Assembly (NCBI GenBank): GCA_027063755.1
Contig: JAMORD010000089.1
Span: 1-7,548, forward strand
Direction of reading: 5' to 3'
Length of the DNA: 7,548 bases
DNA from: a bacterium
Lineage (GTDB): Bacteria; Coprothermobacterota; Coprothermobacteria; Coprothermobacterales; JAADFF01
In this document: positions 1 through 7,548 of the stretch, piece after piece
Position numbering within the stretch: position 1 is the stretch's first letter
Layout of the letters: every line of letters starts with the position of its first letter
Position numbers and translations under genes: made by a program
The notes under the pieces: generated by a model
Seen by the model: only the letters and a program-made list of their open reading frames with translations
Databases searched by the model: none
Told to the model about the DNA's origin: nothing

Positions 1-1041
1 TCTCTTCGCCTCATAGTGAACCATAATACCCACAGCAAGATAATACAAGATGGCCGGCAATATTGCGGCAATCATGATATCTCTATAAGGCAGCTCAAGA
101 AACTCGGCCATGATAAACGCAGCTGCACCCATAACAGGTGGCATAATCTGACCACCTGTAGATGCCGCAGCCTCAACGGCACCGGCAAAGTATGGAGGAT
201 AACCTATAGATTTCATAAGAGGAATGGTAAATGAACCGGTACCCACAACATTGGCAACAGAAGAACCTGATATTGTTCCCATAAGACCTGATGCAATAAC
301 GGCAACCTTAGCAGGGCCACCTATAGACCAACCTGCAAGGGCCAGTGCCAATTCAATAAAGAGGTTGCCTACACCGGTAAACTCAAGAAATGAACCGAAC
401 AGAATGAACATGAAGACAAATGTTGCCGAAACGGCAATAGGCGTTGTGTATATACCATTACCTTCAATGTACATGTGAGAGATAATCGTCTTAAATTGAT
501 AAGACCTATGCCCCAATATACCGGGCAATCCAGGTACAAAGGTATAAATAAGAAACAAACCAATAATTAGGAAAAACCAGATACCACCTACACGGCGGGC
601 ACCTTCAAGCACAAGGGCTATAAGAATAACACCCATGATAATATCCCATAAGTTGGGATTACCAGCTCTATAAATGATGTCATGGTAAAAAAGGACAATA
701 TAAAAAGAGGAAAGAGAACCTAAAATAGCAAAAACATAGTCATACCATCCAATTTTCTTCATACCTTTCTTTGGTGCTACAAAGATATACAAGAGGAATA
801 TGGCAAATCCCAAGTGAATAGAACGCTGTATCAGACCGGCAAGTTCTCCAAAGAAAGCTGTATACAGATGAAACAATGACATACCTATAGCTATAGCATT
901 GATAACACGGTCCCAAAACACACTACCTGTACTACGAGTGGCGGCACCACCTTCATACTCTTCTAAGATCTTCTGTACATCTACAGCACCACTCTCTGCA
1001 GACTCGTCTATCTCTTCAATAATTTCTTTCACCTCTGCCAC
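1..1041 (-). CDS. TRAP transporter fused permease, TAXI type (4TM/12TM), C-terminal part outside window
   Basis: Membrane component of a TAXI-class TRAP transporter, which uses an ion gradient to import a solute delivered by a binding protein. The reading frame is open from 1041 to base 1, giving 347 residues; fused permeases of this family are usually 600-700, so roughly half is missing. A charged cytoplasmic N-terminus (MAEVKEIIEEIDE) is followed by small-subunit (DctQ-like) hydrophobic segments. The start of the large (DctM-like) domain follows, with the characteristic GTISGSSVANVVGTG and STGGQIMPPVMGAAAF stretches. The start was chosen as GTG at 1041 because AAGGGGGTG at 1048-1056 is a good SD for it; a GTG at 1050 lies inside that SD. 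The gene overlaps the end of the DUF1850 gene by 13 bases, which suggests translational coupling. The substrate cannot be read from the sequence. The family is clear; the start is likely. Confidence 0.93.
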   Translation of the reverse strand, partial: MAEVKEIIEEIDESAESGAVDVQKILEEYEGGAATRSTGSVFWDRVINAIAIGMSLFHLYTAFFGELAGLIQRSIHLGFAIFLLYIFVAPKKGMKKIGWYDYVFAILGSLSSFYIVLFYHDIIYRAGNPNLWDIIMGVILIALVLEGARRVGGIWFFLIIGLFLIYTFVPGLPGILGHRSYQFKTIISHMYIEGNGIYTTPIAVSATFVFMFILFGSFLEFTGVGNLFIELALALAGWSIGGPAKVAVIASGLMGTISGSSVANVVGTGSFTIPLMKSIGYPPYFAGAVEAAASTGGQIMPPVMGAAAFIMAEFLELPYRDIMIAAILPAILYYLAVGIMVHYEAKR

Positions 1042-1538
1042 AGCAGGCACCCCCTTTTCCACTCTATAACAACCCTGCCCGTCCTCTTCACATCGGGCAT
1101 AAGCACAAGTTTCCCATTGACATAAAATCTATACCGGTTCAGGGGAATCATAAGATATGTTAGCCTCTTATAATCCCTCTGACCGGTTACTGTTACCCTA
1201 TAGTCAGAAGCAGTGTCAGATATAGTAGCAACCTCTACAGTGCCTTCGGCAGGAAGTCCTGCCCCAAAATCCGGTAGTTCTGACCACAAGGCATGGAAAC
1301 CTTTGTCATCTACACGAATAATATCCTTCACATCAAGCCTGATAACCGAGTGCTTGTATACAACCGTCAGAGTAGCCGTCTTTTCTACTGGCACATCAAC
1401 TGTATATGTTTTCACAGAGCCATCGGGCTGATTCAGGGAAACATAAAATACAATATGCCGGCTACCTAAACATGATATGTAAAATGTGGTGGCGGCAATA
1501 ACCGCCACCACTATGAGAAAGATGATGCTTTTTCGCAT
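1029..1538 (-). CDS. DUF1850 family protein of the TAXI-TRAP operon
   Basis: A 169-residue protein with an N-terminal hydrophobic segment (about residues 4-21), so it is exported or membrane-anchored. Two stretches match what I know of DUF1850: YKHSVIRLDV near residue 61 and FGAGLP near residue 91. This family is known mainly as a small companion encoded beside TAXI-TRAP permeases; its biochemical role is not established. Here it sits between the binding protein (2-base gap) and the permease (13-base overlap), the usual order. There is no convincing SD before its ATG: the nearest purine run, AAGG, is about 18 bases away. Translation therefore probably depends on ribosomes finishing the upstream gene (TAATCATG). 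Cys23 follows the hydrophobic stretch, but YISC is a poor lipobox, so lipoprotein status is doubtful. Confidence 0.88.
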   Translation of the reverse strand: MRKSIIFLIVVAVIAATTFYISCLGSRHIVFYVSLNQPDGSVKTYTVDVPVEKTATLTVVYKHSVIRLDVKDIIRVDDKGFHALWSELPDFGAGLPAEGTVEVATISDTASDYRVTVTGQRDYKRLTYLMIPLNRYRFYVNGKLVLMPDVKRTGRVVIEWKRGCLLWQR

Positions 1539-1540
1539 GA

Positions 1541-2506
1541 TTACTTGGAAAGCTTACCTTTCTCCTTGAAGAATTTCTCTGCACCAGGGTGCCAAGGAAT
1601 AGACATACCCTTAACGGCATTGTCAAGGTTAATCATAGCACCTTTTGCATGAGCCTTGGCAATCTCATCGGTATGCTCAAAGATTGCCTTAAGCATATTG
1701 TATACAACATCTTCGGGTATATCTTTTCTCACAATAAGAATAGCCTTAACGGCTACAGTCTTTACATCTTCATCTACACCCTTATATGTACCAGCAGGAA
1801 TAATATCCTGTACATAGAAAGGATACTTCTCCTTCAGAGCACTGGCATGTTCATCATCAATAGCGATTAACTTTATAGACTTAGAGGCAGCAAGCTCATT
1901 AACTGCTGCTGTTGGATAACCAGCTGTAAGGAATGCTGCATCAAGCTGATTGTTCTTCAGCTTCTGCACAGCATCTTTAAAGGATACATGATCTGCAAGT
2001 GCAAGATCATCAAAGGAAATACCATAGGCCTCAAGAATCTGCTTGGCGTTGGCTTCTACACCAGAGCCAGCAGCACCTACAGCAACCCTCTTACCTTTAA
2101 GGTCGGCAACAGAATTGATGCCAGAATCGGCCAGTGTAACAATCTGAATGTGTTCTGGATAGAGAGCCATCATACCGGCAATATTGTCTACCTTCTTACC
2201 ATCAAATACCTCTACGCCATTGTAGGCATAGTAGGCAATGTCGTTCTGAACAAATGCCATGTCGGCCTGACCATCTTTCAGTAGGTTAATGTTTGCAACA
2301 GAAGCACCTGTAGAACGAGCCTCTACCTTGACATTGTCAACATTGTCGGATATAACCTGTGCAATAGCTGTTCCAAGCGGATAATAAGTACCTGTTGTAC
2401 CACCGGTGGCCATGGAGAAGTTGTAGGTCTGTGTCTGACCACCACATGCAACAAATACCATACCTACCGCCAAAATGAGAGCTACCACTGTCATCAGTTT
2501 TTTCAT
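1541..2506 (-). CDS. TAXI family TRAP transporter solute-binding lipoprotein
   Basis: Extracytoplasmic solute receptor that captures the substrate and delivers it to the fused permease encoded downstream. The 321 residues begin with a basic-hydrophobic signal (MKKLMTVVALILAVG) ending in FVAC, so Cys21 is the likely lipidated residue; Phe at -3 is not ideal for a lipobox. The mature protein opens with the TAXI hallmark ATGGTTGTYYPLG (about 33-45), then EARSTGASVANINLL (62-76) and DMAFVQND (81-88), which are typical ligand-pocket regions. Length is normal for the family. The start is firm: ATG at 2506 has a nearly full-length SD, TAGGAGGTGATC, at 2511-2522. It is the first gene of the operon, followed by DUF1850 and the permease. 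TAXI receptors often bind glutamate or other carboxylates, but the substrate here is unknown. Confidence 0.95.
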   Translation of the reverse strand: MKKLMTVVALILAVGMVFVACGGQTQTYNFSMATGGTTGTYYPLGTAIAQVISDNVDNVKVEARSTGASVANINLLKDGQADMAFVQNDIAYYAYNGVEVFDGKKVDNIAGMMALYPEHIQIVTLADSGINSVADLKGKRVAVGAAGSGVEANAKQILEAYGISFDDLALADHVSFKDAVQKLKNNQLDAAFLTAGYPTAAVNELAASKSIKLIAIDDEHASALKEKYPFYVQDIIPAGTYKGVDEDVKTVAVKAILIVRKDIPEDVVYNMLKAIFEHTDEIAKAHAKGAMINLDNAVKGMSIPWHPGAEKFFKEKGKLSK

Positions 2507-3654: not shown

Positions 3655-3684
3655 ATTATATCATACCTTACTTAGACTGCTCAA
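3655..3684 (-). promoter_or_regulatory. trxB: extended -10 promoter for trxB
   Basis: On the minus strand, TGATATAAT (3655-3663) is a perfect TGn extended -10 plus a consensus TATAAT. An 18-base spacer leads to TTGAGC at 3679-3684, which matches 4 of 6 bases of the -35 consensus. Transcription would start near 3648, giving a leader of about 30 bases that contains the SD. The -35 and much of the spacer lie within the last codons of the 155-residue gene, and no terminator separates the two genes. Confidence 0.7.
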
Positions 3685-4135
3685 TATGAATAGTAGCGGT
3701 GTTTTCGCCCACATCTAAAATTGCCCTGATGGTGTTTGTTTCACAAACATAGTAAGTAATATTCAAGTGGTACATACCATCTACAAGCCACAGCTTACGA
3801 CTACCAAGATACAACTTTCCGTCTCTTGGCACTTGAATAAGAATATAGTTCCAATAAGCCTGCTTCATAGGCTTATCTTCATGATATCTCAAACCTACCT
3901 TTGAAAGGTCTTTTTTATCTACAGCAAGATACACAAACTTACTATATAACTTTGGCACCTGAAGACTTTTTGTCTGGGCATAAAAGTCAAGATAAACCCA
4001 GTGTCCAACTTTTTTTACCTGTATATCAGGATACACAGGATGTGAGCAGACAGTAGATGCCACAGCAGATGGAACGAAGCCGGTTATCACCAACATCACC
4101 ATCAACAATACAATCCCTGTTATGATTTTTTTCAT
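3668..4135 (-). CDS. exported protein of unknown function, 155 aa
   Basis: I do not recognise this protein. Its first 26 residues are a clear signal peptide: a KK start, a long hydrophobic core and an AVA site, with cleavage likely after Ala26. The mature part of about 129 residues is rich in Tyr, Val and Leu in alternating patterns (HWVYLDFYAQ, KLYLGSRKLWLV, MYHLNITYYV), suggesting a small beta-sheet domain. It contains only two cysteines, Cys30 and Cys131, which could form a disulfide after export. ATG at 4135 is one base past the stop of the 98-residue gene. Its SD, GGAGGAGGG, is made by the last codons of that gene, so the two are probably co-translated. It is the third gene of a cluster with the 98- and 347-residue proteins. 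No terminator follows it before the trxB promoter. Confidence 0.82.
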   Translation of the reverse strand: MKKIITGIVLLMVMLVITGFVPSAVASTVCSHPVYPDIQVKKVGHWVYLDFYAQTKSLQVPKLYSKFVYLAVDKKDLSKVGLRYHEDKPMKQAYWNYILIQVPRDGKLYLGSRKLWLVDGMYHLNITYYVCETNTIRAILDVGENTATIHIEQSK

Positions 4136-4136
4136 G

Positions 4137-4433
4137 TTATCCCTCCTCCTCTAAATGTATTTCATAAAAATCATATCCACCAGAACGCTTGATAGCAAGA
4201 TACTCTCCTCCACGGGCATCGGTAATGACATAAGCCCTATGCTCGGGAAACAAACCTTCAATACGAGAAAGCAAGAATAAAGACTCTTCTGGTATAGCCG
4301 TCTGCAACTTTTTTACAAAACCTGAACACTCAAGAGACTGCATAAGAATAGGAAGCACATATGTCACATCGTCATCGGACATACGATTAACAACATCAAG
4401 AAACAGTCTTAGCCCACGGGTTGTCCACTTCAT
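4137..4433 (-). CDS. small soluble protein of unknown function, 98 aa
   Basis: I do not recognise this protein. It has no signal peptide or membrane segment, so it should be cytoplasmic. The N-terminal two thirds looks helical and includes an acidic turn, MSDDD (18-22). The C-terminal third has strand-like segments (HRAYVIT, GEYLAIKR, YDFYEIHL) and ends in EEEG. ATG at 4433 is preferred to the in-frame GTG at 4442, because AGGGGGTG at 4441-4448 is the probable SD and overlaps that GTG. The gene begins 18 bases after the 347-residue membrane protein ends and stops one base before the exported 155-residue protein, so all three are likely one transcript. Its closing codons GAG GAG GAG GGA double as the next gene's SD. 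A regulator or adaptor of the neighbouring membrane protein is possible but unproven. Confidence 0.8.
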   Translation of the reverse strand: MKWTTRGLRLFLDVVNRMSDDDVTYVLPILMQSLECSGFVKKLQTAIPEESLFLLSRIEGLFPEHRAYVITDARGGEYLAIKRSGGYDFYEIHLEEEG

Positions 4434-4451
4434 CTTATCCACCCCCTATTT

Positions 4452-5495
4452 TTATTGTAGACCAAACATAATAGAAACAGTATGCTTAAGGGCATCGTAT
4501 ATGTCAGATGAATGAAAAAGGGTAAATACCACAGCCAATAACATAAGAGACATCTGCAGTCTCATGTATGTATCAGACTTTTCCAAACACTCACACCACC
4601 GATAATATAAAAACTCACCAAGCCAGAATATCAGATAACCGACCGCCATATAAAGATACAAAGTGTTATAAAATCCCAGCGTGATAGTAGATATTAACGA
4701 TAATGATGTTATTATCCACCATTGTTTGGGAGCACGAAAAATAACTCTTGACAGACGTAGTACAAACAGATGAAGCCCATTAATGGCAATAGGGGGAATA
4801 GACTCAACCAGCAGCCCCTGAATAAAGAACACGAAGGCGTAGGTATCAAGCAGTTTATATGCCACATACATCACAGGCAAATACAGGATAAAACGCAAGT
4901 CAATAACATAAGGATACGGCAAATGATAGATATTCTTCTTTTTGTGCCTTTGCTTGGGTATAGACACAACTGGTAACTTCTCAACCTCGGTAAGAGATTG
5001 AAACTCTGTATTATCTACAGCATATTCAAACATAGCCATAAACTCCTCTTTGTTTCTGGCATGAACAGTAGCCGTATATACGGAAATAAACATATTCATA
5101 TACTCGTGTAATTCATTGGGCAAAGAATAGTCCACCATTTCAGACAAGACATTAATTGCACTGTATACATCTTCAAATACCTGTCTATATGGTGTATATT
5201 TTGATGCACTGGAAACAAACTCATCCCAATTGAGAATGTCTCTATCAAGCATCTTATACAAACGGGCAATCTGATACACAAAGCCATATAGGGCAGTTTT
5301 AAGGTAAACAGTGGTAAATGATAGCAGTCTACGAGTAGTGAATATATATTGGGTATCTTGTTCTGCCATACCAAGATCAATAGCCCATAGTAGCAAAGAG
5401 CGAATCTCCTGTAAATCCTCTATGGTAATTTTCTCTATCCTTTTCTTACGCCACTTATCAACAATAGCCGAGTACCGCTCTATCTCACTGGCCAT
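4452..5495 (-). CDS. membrane protein of unknown function with soluble N-terminal half, 347 aa
   Basis: I do not recognise this protein. Residues 1 to about 190 are hydrophilic, mostly helical and rich in aromatic residues. A strongly basic patch, KQRHKKK (181-187), precedes a hydrophobic C-terminal half with four or five likely membrane helices, at about 200-217, 219-248 (perhaps two short segments), 260-282, 285-306 and 322-338. The basic patch would place the N-terminal half in the cytoplasm by the positive-inside rule. ATG at 5495 is preferred to the in-frame GTG at 5504, which lies in the SD TAGGTGG. It leads the cluster with the 98- and 155-residue genes. The layout (cytoplasmic plus membrane protein, small soluble protein, exported protein) could serve an envelope process or sensing, but no catalytic motif is visible. 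Its SD sits in the loop of an AU-rich hairpin. Confidence 0.85.
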   Translation of the reverse strand: MASEIERYSAIVDKWRKKRIEKITIEDLQEIRSLLLWAIDLGMAEQDTQYIFTTRRLLSFTTVYLKTALYGFVYQIARLYKMLDRDILNWDEFVSSASKYTPYRQVFEDVYSAINVLSEMVDYSLPNELHEYMNMFISVYTATVHARNKEEFMAMFEYAVDNTEFQSLTEVEKLPVVSIPKQRHKKKNIYHLPYPYVIDLRFILYLPVMYVAYKLLDTYAFVFFIQGLLVESIPPIAINGLHLFVLRLSRVIFRAPKQWWIITSLSLISTITLGFYNTLYLYMAVGYLIFWLGEFLYYRWCECLEKSDTYMRLQMSLMLLAVVFTLFHSSDIYDALKHTVSIMFGLQ

Positions 5496-5515
5496 ATATA
5501 CCACCTACTATATAT
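5493..5515 (-). promoter_or_regulatory. AU-only hairpin presenting the ribosome-binding site of the 347-aa gene
   Basis: On the minus-strand mRNA, a perfect 7-bp all-A/U stem (AUAUAUA at 5509-5515 with UAUAUAU at 5494-5500) encloses the 8-base loop GUAGGUGG, which holds the SD. The first two bases of the AUG lie in the stem. Such a weak stem could tune initiation with temperature, or may simply reflect AT-rich composition. Confidence 0.35.
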
Positions 5516-5530
5516 CTACCAGTTTCCTAT

Positions 5531-5565
5531 TACAATATTACTATGGGGCACATGGAGATTATCAA
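5531..5565. promoter_or_regulatory. overlapping candidate divergent promoters
   Basis: Only 47 bases separate the divergent 347-residue and esterase-like genes, so their promoters must overlap each other or the coding ends. On plus, TACAAT at 5531-5536 is a good -10 whose start point would be the ATG at 5543 itself; no -35 is evident. On minus, TTGATA at 5560-5565 and TAATAT at 5535-5540, 19 bases apart, would give a leader of about 35 bases. Both are weak assignments. Confidence 0.3.
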
Positions 5566-6193
5566 AAACCTACCATTTGCAAACGGGCAAACAAGAAATA
5601 TATATGTATACACACCAGATACCTATGGGCCTTCACTACTTGTTGTTGTATACGATGGACAATTTGTATTTGACCTATATCCTACAAAGCACCCAATTGG
5701 CATTAATCTGTATGCAGACATTGCAATAAGAGAAGGCACTATCCCCCCCATTACCATAGTAGGCATTGAATCAACCGCAGATAGGCTCAACGAGCTTAAC
5801 CCATGGGACTATACAGCATGCCAAACATTTTTAGAAAGCACGGTCTTACCACTTATAAAAAAACAATACAAAGTTAAAAGGCCATACATAAACATAGGCT
5901 TCTCCGCTGGTGGACAAACGGCCATCTACATGAGTAGATACATAGGGCTATTTGACATGGCCGGGGCCATACTACCTCTATGGATACCCGGCAAGCACAA
6001 TACTATTGCCCCTTATTCACATTTCACATATTTGGCTGTTCGCTCACAAACCGAGGCAGATATCATATTAAACTCATTAAAGACCAATGTGCTATATGAG
6101 ATATACCCAAATGCATACCACACTGTAGATTTCTTCAGAAAATTACTACCCCATGCCATAGAGGTGCTAATCCACCATGCATCAGAAACATAA
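5543..6193 (+). CDS. putative esterase (PF00756-like alpha/beta hydrolase), 216 aa
   Basis: Probably a serine hydrolase of the enterochelin esterase/esterase D type; its substrate is not evident. The N-terminus matches the family pattern IYVYTPDTY...LLVVVYDGQFVF (20-44), followed by IPPITIVGIES (67-77). The nucleophile elbow is GFSAGG, with Ser121. The C-terminal YHTVDFFRKLLP supplies the likely catalytic His193. The usual acidic residue, normally in a G..D turn, is not in its expected form; Glu171 or Asp173 (TEAD) is the nearest candidate. At 216 residues it is shorter than most family members (about 250-300), with the region after the nucleophile condensed. There is no signal peptide, so it is cytoplasmic. 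No SD precedes ATG 5543, while a -10-like TACAAT sits just upstream, so the message may be leaderless. ATG 5552 is an alternative start with no better SD. It overlaps the kinase gene by 17 bases. Confidence 0.8.
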   Translation: MGHMEIIKNLPFANGQTRNIYVYTPDTYGPSLLVVVYDGQFVFDLYPTKHPIGINLYADIAIREGTIPPITIVGIESTADRLNELNPWDYTACQTFLESTVLPLIKKQYKVKRPYINIGFSAGGQTAIYMSRYIGLFDMAGAILPLWIPGKHNTIAPYSHFTYLAVRSQTEADIILNSLKTNVLYEIYPNAYHTVDFFRKLLPHAIEVLIHHASET

Positions 6194-6950
6194 AATACTT
6201 TACACACCACCAAAAACACTATTCATACCGGTTGGTACTCCTCTCATGGGAAAGACAACATGGATAAAAAGGATGCTCCCCAAAACTGTTGCTTCTGTCA
6301 GTAGAGATGATATTAGAAAAGCCATATCCCGGCCTGTATCTTTAGGAATAGGCAAGTTTTACGAAACCATAGTAGATAGCAAGATGGAAGAGGAAATAGA
6401 ACACCTGTGGTGGAAGGCCCTGCAGTGGAACATGGAAAGAAACATTCCAGTAGTCAGCGATACTACCAATCTTACACATAAAGGCAGGCAAAAACTCTGC
6501 ATGCTTGCACACGAACACGGGTATACTCCGATGGTTATCGTTTTTACAACCAGAGACAAGTTAAGAACATGCATAAGCACAGACACGGCGATAATGACAA
6601 AACACGCCAAAGAGCTATACAAACAGGCCATAAAAACCCGGGGCAAATCTCAATACCATAGATTTATAAAAAACCTAGGAATAACATCAGAACTTGGCAT
6701 AACACTTATGCTGAGAAACTACGAAAGACTCCACAAAGACAGTATCTTTATCAATCCTCGGGTACTGTCCTCTATGATAAAACGCATGTATAACGACTAC
6801 CCCCATAGAGCCTATCTAAAAACAGACTTTTCCCGTGTAAAAATTACCAATATACCTCACCCATGTATAGACAAATGCCTACCCACAAAACGCTATAGAG
6901 CGGTGGCTAAACCACCCCAGAAGCCTACAATGGAAGGCAAGGAATGGTAA
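6177..6950 (+). CDS. P-loop kinase resembling the T4 polynucleotide 5'-kinase domain, 257 aa
   Basis: A cytoplasmic P-loop phosphotransferase. Walker A is GTPLMGKT (20-27), followed by W in the T4 polynucleotide kinase manner. SRDDIR (42-47) corresponds to the T4 NRDDYR segment, whose Asp and Arg contact the 5'-hydroxyl and phosphate. SDTTN (94-98) corresponds to the strand ending in SDTN. NPRVLSSMIKRMY (193-205) resembles the helix after the lid. Between about 133 and 188 there is extra sequence not present in the T4 kinase domain, containing TRGKSQYHRF. No phosphatase domain follows; instead there is a basic tail with CIDKC (230-234). A 5'-OH nucleic acid kinase is the best guess, but a small-molecule kinase of the same fold (zeta-toxin or chloramphenicol phosphotransferase type) cannot be excluded. 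SD GAGGTG (6161-6166) lies inside the esterase gene, so the two are probably coupled. Confidence 0.8.
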   Translation: MHQKHKILYTPPKTLFIPVGTPLMGKTTWIKRMLPKTVASVSRDDIRKAISRPVSLGIGKFYETIVDSKMEEEIEHLWWKALQWNMERNIPVVSDTTNLTHKGRQKLCMLAHEHGYTPMVIVFTTRDKLRTCISTDTAIMTKHAKELYKQAIKTRGKSQYHRFIKNLGITSELGITLMLRNYERLHKDSIFINPRVLSSMIKRMYNDYPHRAYLKTDFSRVKITNIPHPCIDKCLPTKRYRAVAKPPQKPTMEGKEW

Positions 6951-7005: not shown

Positions 7006-7548
7006 ATGAAAAAGTTCTCTCATGTCGTTATTATCATTGCCATGATACTGGCAACTTTCCCCCTGCAAGTTTTTGCCCTAACCAATGATGGTATTGACAC
7101 ACCTAACCCCACCTTGGTATTTGCCGGCAACAAAACTTACATTTATAGCACCATTACAACAACAGACGGATACATAGTAGCCGGCACAACACAGTTTGAC
7201 AATGGAAGCACCGTATTCATTCAAAAAATTGACAAGAACGGCAAAGTTATCTGGAACACCTATGTTGGCGGACAAACTGACTATGTACCTGCCTATGTAA
7301 CTCCCAAAGTTATAGAGTTAGGAGATTACTACTATGTCGTAGGCTCTACACAGGGCACCGATGTAGAAGGCTATCACGGTGGCACATGTGGTGATCATCC
7401 ATGCAGTGATATACTCGTAGCCAAAGTTGATAAAGATGGAAATCTCATATGGCACAAGGCTTATGGCACAGAAAATGAAGACATAGGATATAGTGCCATA
7501 GCCGATGGCAACAACATTGTGGTAGTAGGTTATATAGACAGAAATACC
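7006..7548 (+). CDS. exported beta-propeller-like repeat protein, C-terminus outside window
   Basis: The frame is open from ATG 7006 to the window edge (181 residues), with a very strong SD. Residues 1-24 are a signal peptide (KK start, hydrophobic core, VFA cleavage site). The rest shows a repeating pattern: a DG/GD turn plus Y.VVG strand, then a K(I/V)DK.G(K/N).IW strand pair ending in a YGG/YGT turn. Copies are visible at about 54-89 and 106-154, with a third starting at 167. This is the layout of bacterial secreted or surface beta-propeller-type proteins, whose blades read like 'VKLDKDGNLIW'. The second copy carries an insert with Cys128 and Cys133 (CGDHPC) after a GTDVEGYHGG turn, perhaps a disulfide or metal-linked loop. 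It probably acts outside the membrane, but the role, blade number and any anchor domain lie beyond the edge. Confidence 0.85.
   Translation, partial: MKKFSHVVIIIAMILATFPLQVFALTNDGIDTPNPTLVFAGNKTYIYSTITTTDGYIVAGTTQFDNGSTVFIQKIDKNGKVIWNTYVGGQTDYVPAYVTPKVIELGDYYYVVGSTQGTDVEGYHGGTCGDHPCSDILVAKVDKDGNLIWHKAYGTENEDIGYSAIADGNNIVVVGYIDRNT

Follow-up and report, generated by a model that had tools for sequence, protein, structure and literature searches.

We read the three adjacent genes C, B and A as a genus-restricted orphan operon that is co-transcribed and probably acts at the cell envelope, a reading to which we assign a probability of about 0.5. The window, that is, the whole stretch of DNA analysed (7,548 nucleotides), is a complete contig (C89) of a 1.5-Mb assembly that is 88% complete. 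The sequence features that support this reading are the packing of the genes, the SD site of A inside B, selection on all three genes, and the conserved spacing together with the promoter of the neighbouring trxB gene. We also count in its favour the single copy of the cluster in both genomes, the lack of further copies in the searches made elsewhere, five trxB neighbourhoods outside the genus without an equivalent, and the conserved cysteine pair and predicted signal peptide of A.

Organisation, borders and coding of the cluster

The genes C, B and A are all encoded on the minus strand, with gaps of 18 bases between C and B and 1 base between B and A. A strong SD site is found upstream of gene B (AGGGGGTGG), and a second one, upstream of gene A (GGAGGAGGG), lies within the 3' end of gene B. 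The open reading frames confirm the tight packing described in the initial annotation, and from this arrangement we infer that C, B and A are co-transcribed.

Table 1. Positions of the cluster genes and of the features that surround them in the window.
Feature	Positions	Strand	Description	Source
Gene C	4452..5495	-	347 aa, ATG 5495	ORF list
Gene B	4137..4433	-	98 aa, ATG 4433	ORF list
Gene A	3668..4135	-	155 aa, ATG 4135	ORF list
Probable trxB promoter	3655..3684	-	TTGAGC-18-TATAAT, overlaps end of gene A	
Divergent intergenic region, gene C/esterase	5496..5542		47 bases	G001 alignment
Candidate gene C promoter	5535-5507	-	TTGTAA-17-TATAGT, -10 differs in G001	
Esterase-like and AAA_33-type nucleotide kinase gene pair	5543-6950	+	Divergent from cluster	
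TAXI-type TRAP transporter set	1-2506	-	NMT1-like binding protein, DUF1850 protein, DctM-type permease	
Start of a secreted protein	7006-7548	+	Runs off contig end	

The probable trxB promoter matches the consensus of a sigma-70-type promoter at 10 of 12 positions and carries a TG before the -10 element. Its counterpart in the congener (G001) is TTGAGA-18-TATAAT at the equivalent position. Since trxB has its own conserved promoter, the cluster unit probably stops at A and trxB is probably a separate transcription unit, promoter-like sites in the region being no more numerous than in shuffled sequences. At the other border, alignment with the congener revealed a conserved 23-bp block (CATAGTAATATTGTAATAGGAAA, 5523-5545) that extends to the esterase ATG. 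No SD is evident near this ATG, and the esterase mRNA may start there without a leader. The esterase-like gene (PF00756, E 1.3e-6) overlaps the kinase gene by 17 bases; the two are 76% and 72% identical to their homologues in the congener, and the pair was not found in the other genomes of the phylum that were searched, apart from very weak esterase matches. In the TRAP set, the DUF1850 protein lies between the binding protein and the permease, which is truncated at the contig end. The secreted protein at the opposite end bears a weak likeness to SBBP repeat beta-propeller lipoproteins; the match (NF047494, E 2.8e-6) falls well short of the cut-off of that model. The window contains no Rfam elements.

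The lengths of the three genes were compared with the longest open frame in each of 500 mononucleotide shuffles of the segment (median 73 codons, 95th percentile 116, maximum 166). Gene C, with 347 codons, is far above this range and gene A, with 155, is close to its top, while the length of gene B (98), taken alone, is within chance. B and A were accepted as genes because of their codon constraint relative to the homologous locus of the congener. Differences at codon positions 1, 2 and 3 amount to 0.27, 0.17 and 0.51 for C, to 0.14, 0.04 and 0.37 for B, and to 0.26, 0.21 and 0.53 for A. The dN/dS values against the same locus are 0.137 for C, 0.083 for B and 0.141 for A, with synonymous sites almost saturated for A and C. 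By these codon comparisons, all three are genuine protein-coding genes under purifying selection. B is the slowest-changing (88% identity to its homologue, against 64% for both A and C), and both A and C diverge more rapidly than the trxB and TAXI genes beside them.

Predicted proteins and family searches

Hydropathy bears out, as predictions, the complementary locations proposed in the initial annotation: C in the membrane with a soluble half, B soluble and A exported. Residues 1-190 of C are hydrophilic (GRAVY -0.27, pI 5.7) and probably helical, whereas residues 191-347 are hydrophobic (GRAVY +0.78), with hydrophobic segments that span about 197 to 336. By the positive-inside rule, the N-terminus of C would lie inside, and residues 195-347 would form about five membrane helices. 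The lysine-rich linker at 181-187 is variable: its identity to the congener is 42%, against 68% over residues 1-170, 68% over 195-300 and 53% over 301-347. An FTR1-type permease was considered for C and dropped, as the motifs of that family appear to be missing.

The B protein is small and acidic and has no membrane segment. Its AlphaFold (AF2) model has a mean pLDDT of 72, with 43-55 for the other four models, and shows, at moderate confidence, five helices followed by a three-stranded sheet. This low-confidence model suggests a small alpha+beta protein. Foldseek returned nothing for it at E 0.001 or better, and the best VIA-align match (Z 3.2) is inside the common background, so that no credible fold was found.

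A begins with a hydrophobic N-terminus and a predicted signal peptide, which is kept in the congener, with an AVA|S cleavage site near residue 26. The cysteine pair C30 and C131 and the histidines 32, 45, 85 and 123 are conserved between the two species. The AF2 model is beta-rich (mean pLDDT 58.7) and had no Foldseek match at E 0.001 or better. VIA-align returned many Ig-like beta-sandwich matches with a best Z of 6.2, a range that the tool calls common for any model. These matches, which include FetP/P19/FtrA, CBM46, YEATS and FnIII proteins, share a similar general arrangement with the A model (over roughly 70-95 residues, with Z about 5-6 and an rmsd of about 3 to 4 angstrom), but identity is 4-18%, the matches are scattered over unrelated families and there is no family profile match. 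The match to FetP itself (Z 5.5, to the model of mean pLDDT 58.7) stands amid many unrelated folds. Profile scans of A returned no Pfam family with an E-value of 10 or lower and nothing credible from NCBIfam, and no family profile places A with the FetP/P19-type periplasmic metal proteins. The model suggests, with low confidence, an Ig-like beta-sandwich, which we take as no more than a hint at the fold class. A superoxide reductase was also considered for A and dropped, as its motifs appear to be lacking.

Profile scans of C, B and A against Pfam, NCBIfam, PHROGs, PADLOC and PDB sequences gave nothing above chance, in keeping with the initial annotation, which had recognised no family for any of the three. 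A match of each protein to a known unrelated family, named there as evidence against a shared system, was searched for by profile and not found. The matches ANF_receptor (0.019), SNaCT6 (0.072) and T9SS sortase (0.037) were at chance level and were rejected. The genes could nonetheless belong to known families and have evolved so fast that the profile searches made here do not reach their homology, A being, for example, an Ig-like periplasmic domain. We consider this a little less probable than even: the many Ig-like matches of the A model and the rapid change of A and C relative to trxB and TAXI genes point towards it, while the Pfam, NCBIfam and PDB-sequence scans and the ordinary Z values of A point away.

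Distribution of the three genes

Genomes were searched with single sequences (60 genomes) and with profiles (386 genomes). Among the 386, the cluster genes were found in the source genome (G000) and its congener and in no other, and the cluster is single-copy in both. Further genome matches (E 2e-4 to 0.1) were short, many crossing stop codons, and the strongest extra match in every profile search (E between 2e-4 and 7e-4) was likewise short and interrupted by stop codons; none was retained. One species-wide scan of a contig set, with gene B as its only query, returned a single locus, on the contig of the congener. Seven further genomes represent the order and phylum, and in six of them a full-length trxB is present that shares 42-51% identity with that of the window; profile searches detected no cluster in these six, and no diverged equivalent was recognisable beside trxB in the five order or phylum neighbourhoods that were read. 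Within the collections searched, the three genes are restricted to the genus.

This confinement might point to a mobile or defence-related cassette acquired by the genus, but we judge such an origin very improbable. None of the three proteins matched a PADLOC model of known anti-phage defence with an E-value of 10 or lower, there was no credible PHROG match, and no relatives of the cluster turned up among the viral contigs, phages and plasmids scanned. Moreover, the cluster region is free of long repeats and the cluster sits at the same locus in both species.

The contig of the congener is collinear throughout (TRAP transporter, DUF1850, TAXI protein, trxB, A-B-C, esterase, kinase), with the C-B gap unchanged at 18 bases and a B-A gap of 2 bases instead of 1. 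As all flanks are collinear in this sole other carrier found, the shared order says next to nothing about function. The initial annotation had proposed that a conserved order in other genomes would indicate an envelope system; with one collinear congener sharing the order, this is not supported. Co-occurrence was indeed seen in that congener, where it is uninformative, and was not found elsewhere. Lack of co-occurrence in relatives, which had been put forward as evidence against the proposal, is what was observed outside the genus, but it fits a lineage-specific operon just as well as the lack of any system.

The three could also be unrelated lineage-specific genes with separate functions, sharing a transcript or a strand only through the compactness of the genome. 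The small 1.5-Mb genome, short gaps across the whole window, the complete collinearity with the congener and the different rate of B are consistent with this possibility. We nevertheless regard it as rather unlikely, in view of the complementary locations, the SD site of A within B and the identical phyletic pattern of all three genes.

A putative envelope operon and its likeness to known systems

If C-B-A is a genus-restricted operon, its transcript would start in the divergent region 5496-5542 and end before trxB. C would sit in the cytoplasmic membrane as an anchor, with its helical half inside, and B, produced alongside it, would be a cytoplasmic partner or regulator. A would be exported to the outer face as a beta-sandwich closed by a C30-C131 disulfide. 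Such a disulfide, contacts between the proteins and any shared task are inferred; the three might jointly serve a lineage-specific envelope function, e.g. ligand or metal capture, or transmembrane signalling.

Several observations count against the operon reading. There are just two sequences with collinear flanks, which leaves the co-occurrence test without power; promoter-like sites do not exceed their number in shuffled sequences, and the -10 element of the candidate C promoter is not conserved. The much slower change of B than of the other two proteins does not suggest that the three co-evolve tightly as one complex. A hitherto undescribed envelope complex of three components, invented by the lineage, with an exported and possibly metal-binding A (two Cys, four His), C as membrane partner and B as cytoplasmic switch, appears improbable to us. 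We rate the cluster as an ordinary orphan operon with a putative role at the envelope.

If the three proteins act together, a deep-branching lineage would have invented a small envelope system. As found, they are three uncharacterised families within one genus, a common situation in phyla that have been sparsely sampled. None of the features tested distinguishes the cluster from taxonomically restricted (orphan) operons, which it resembles in consisting of conserved genes, under selection, without detectable relatives beyond a narrow group.
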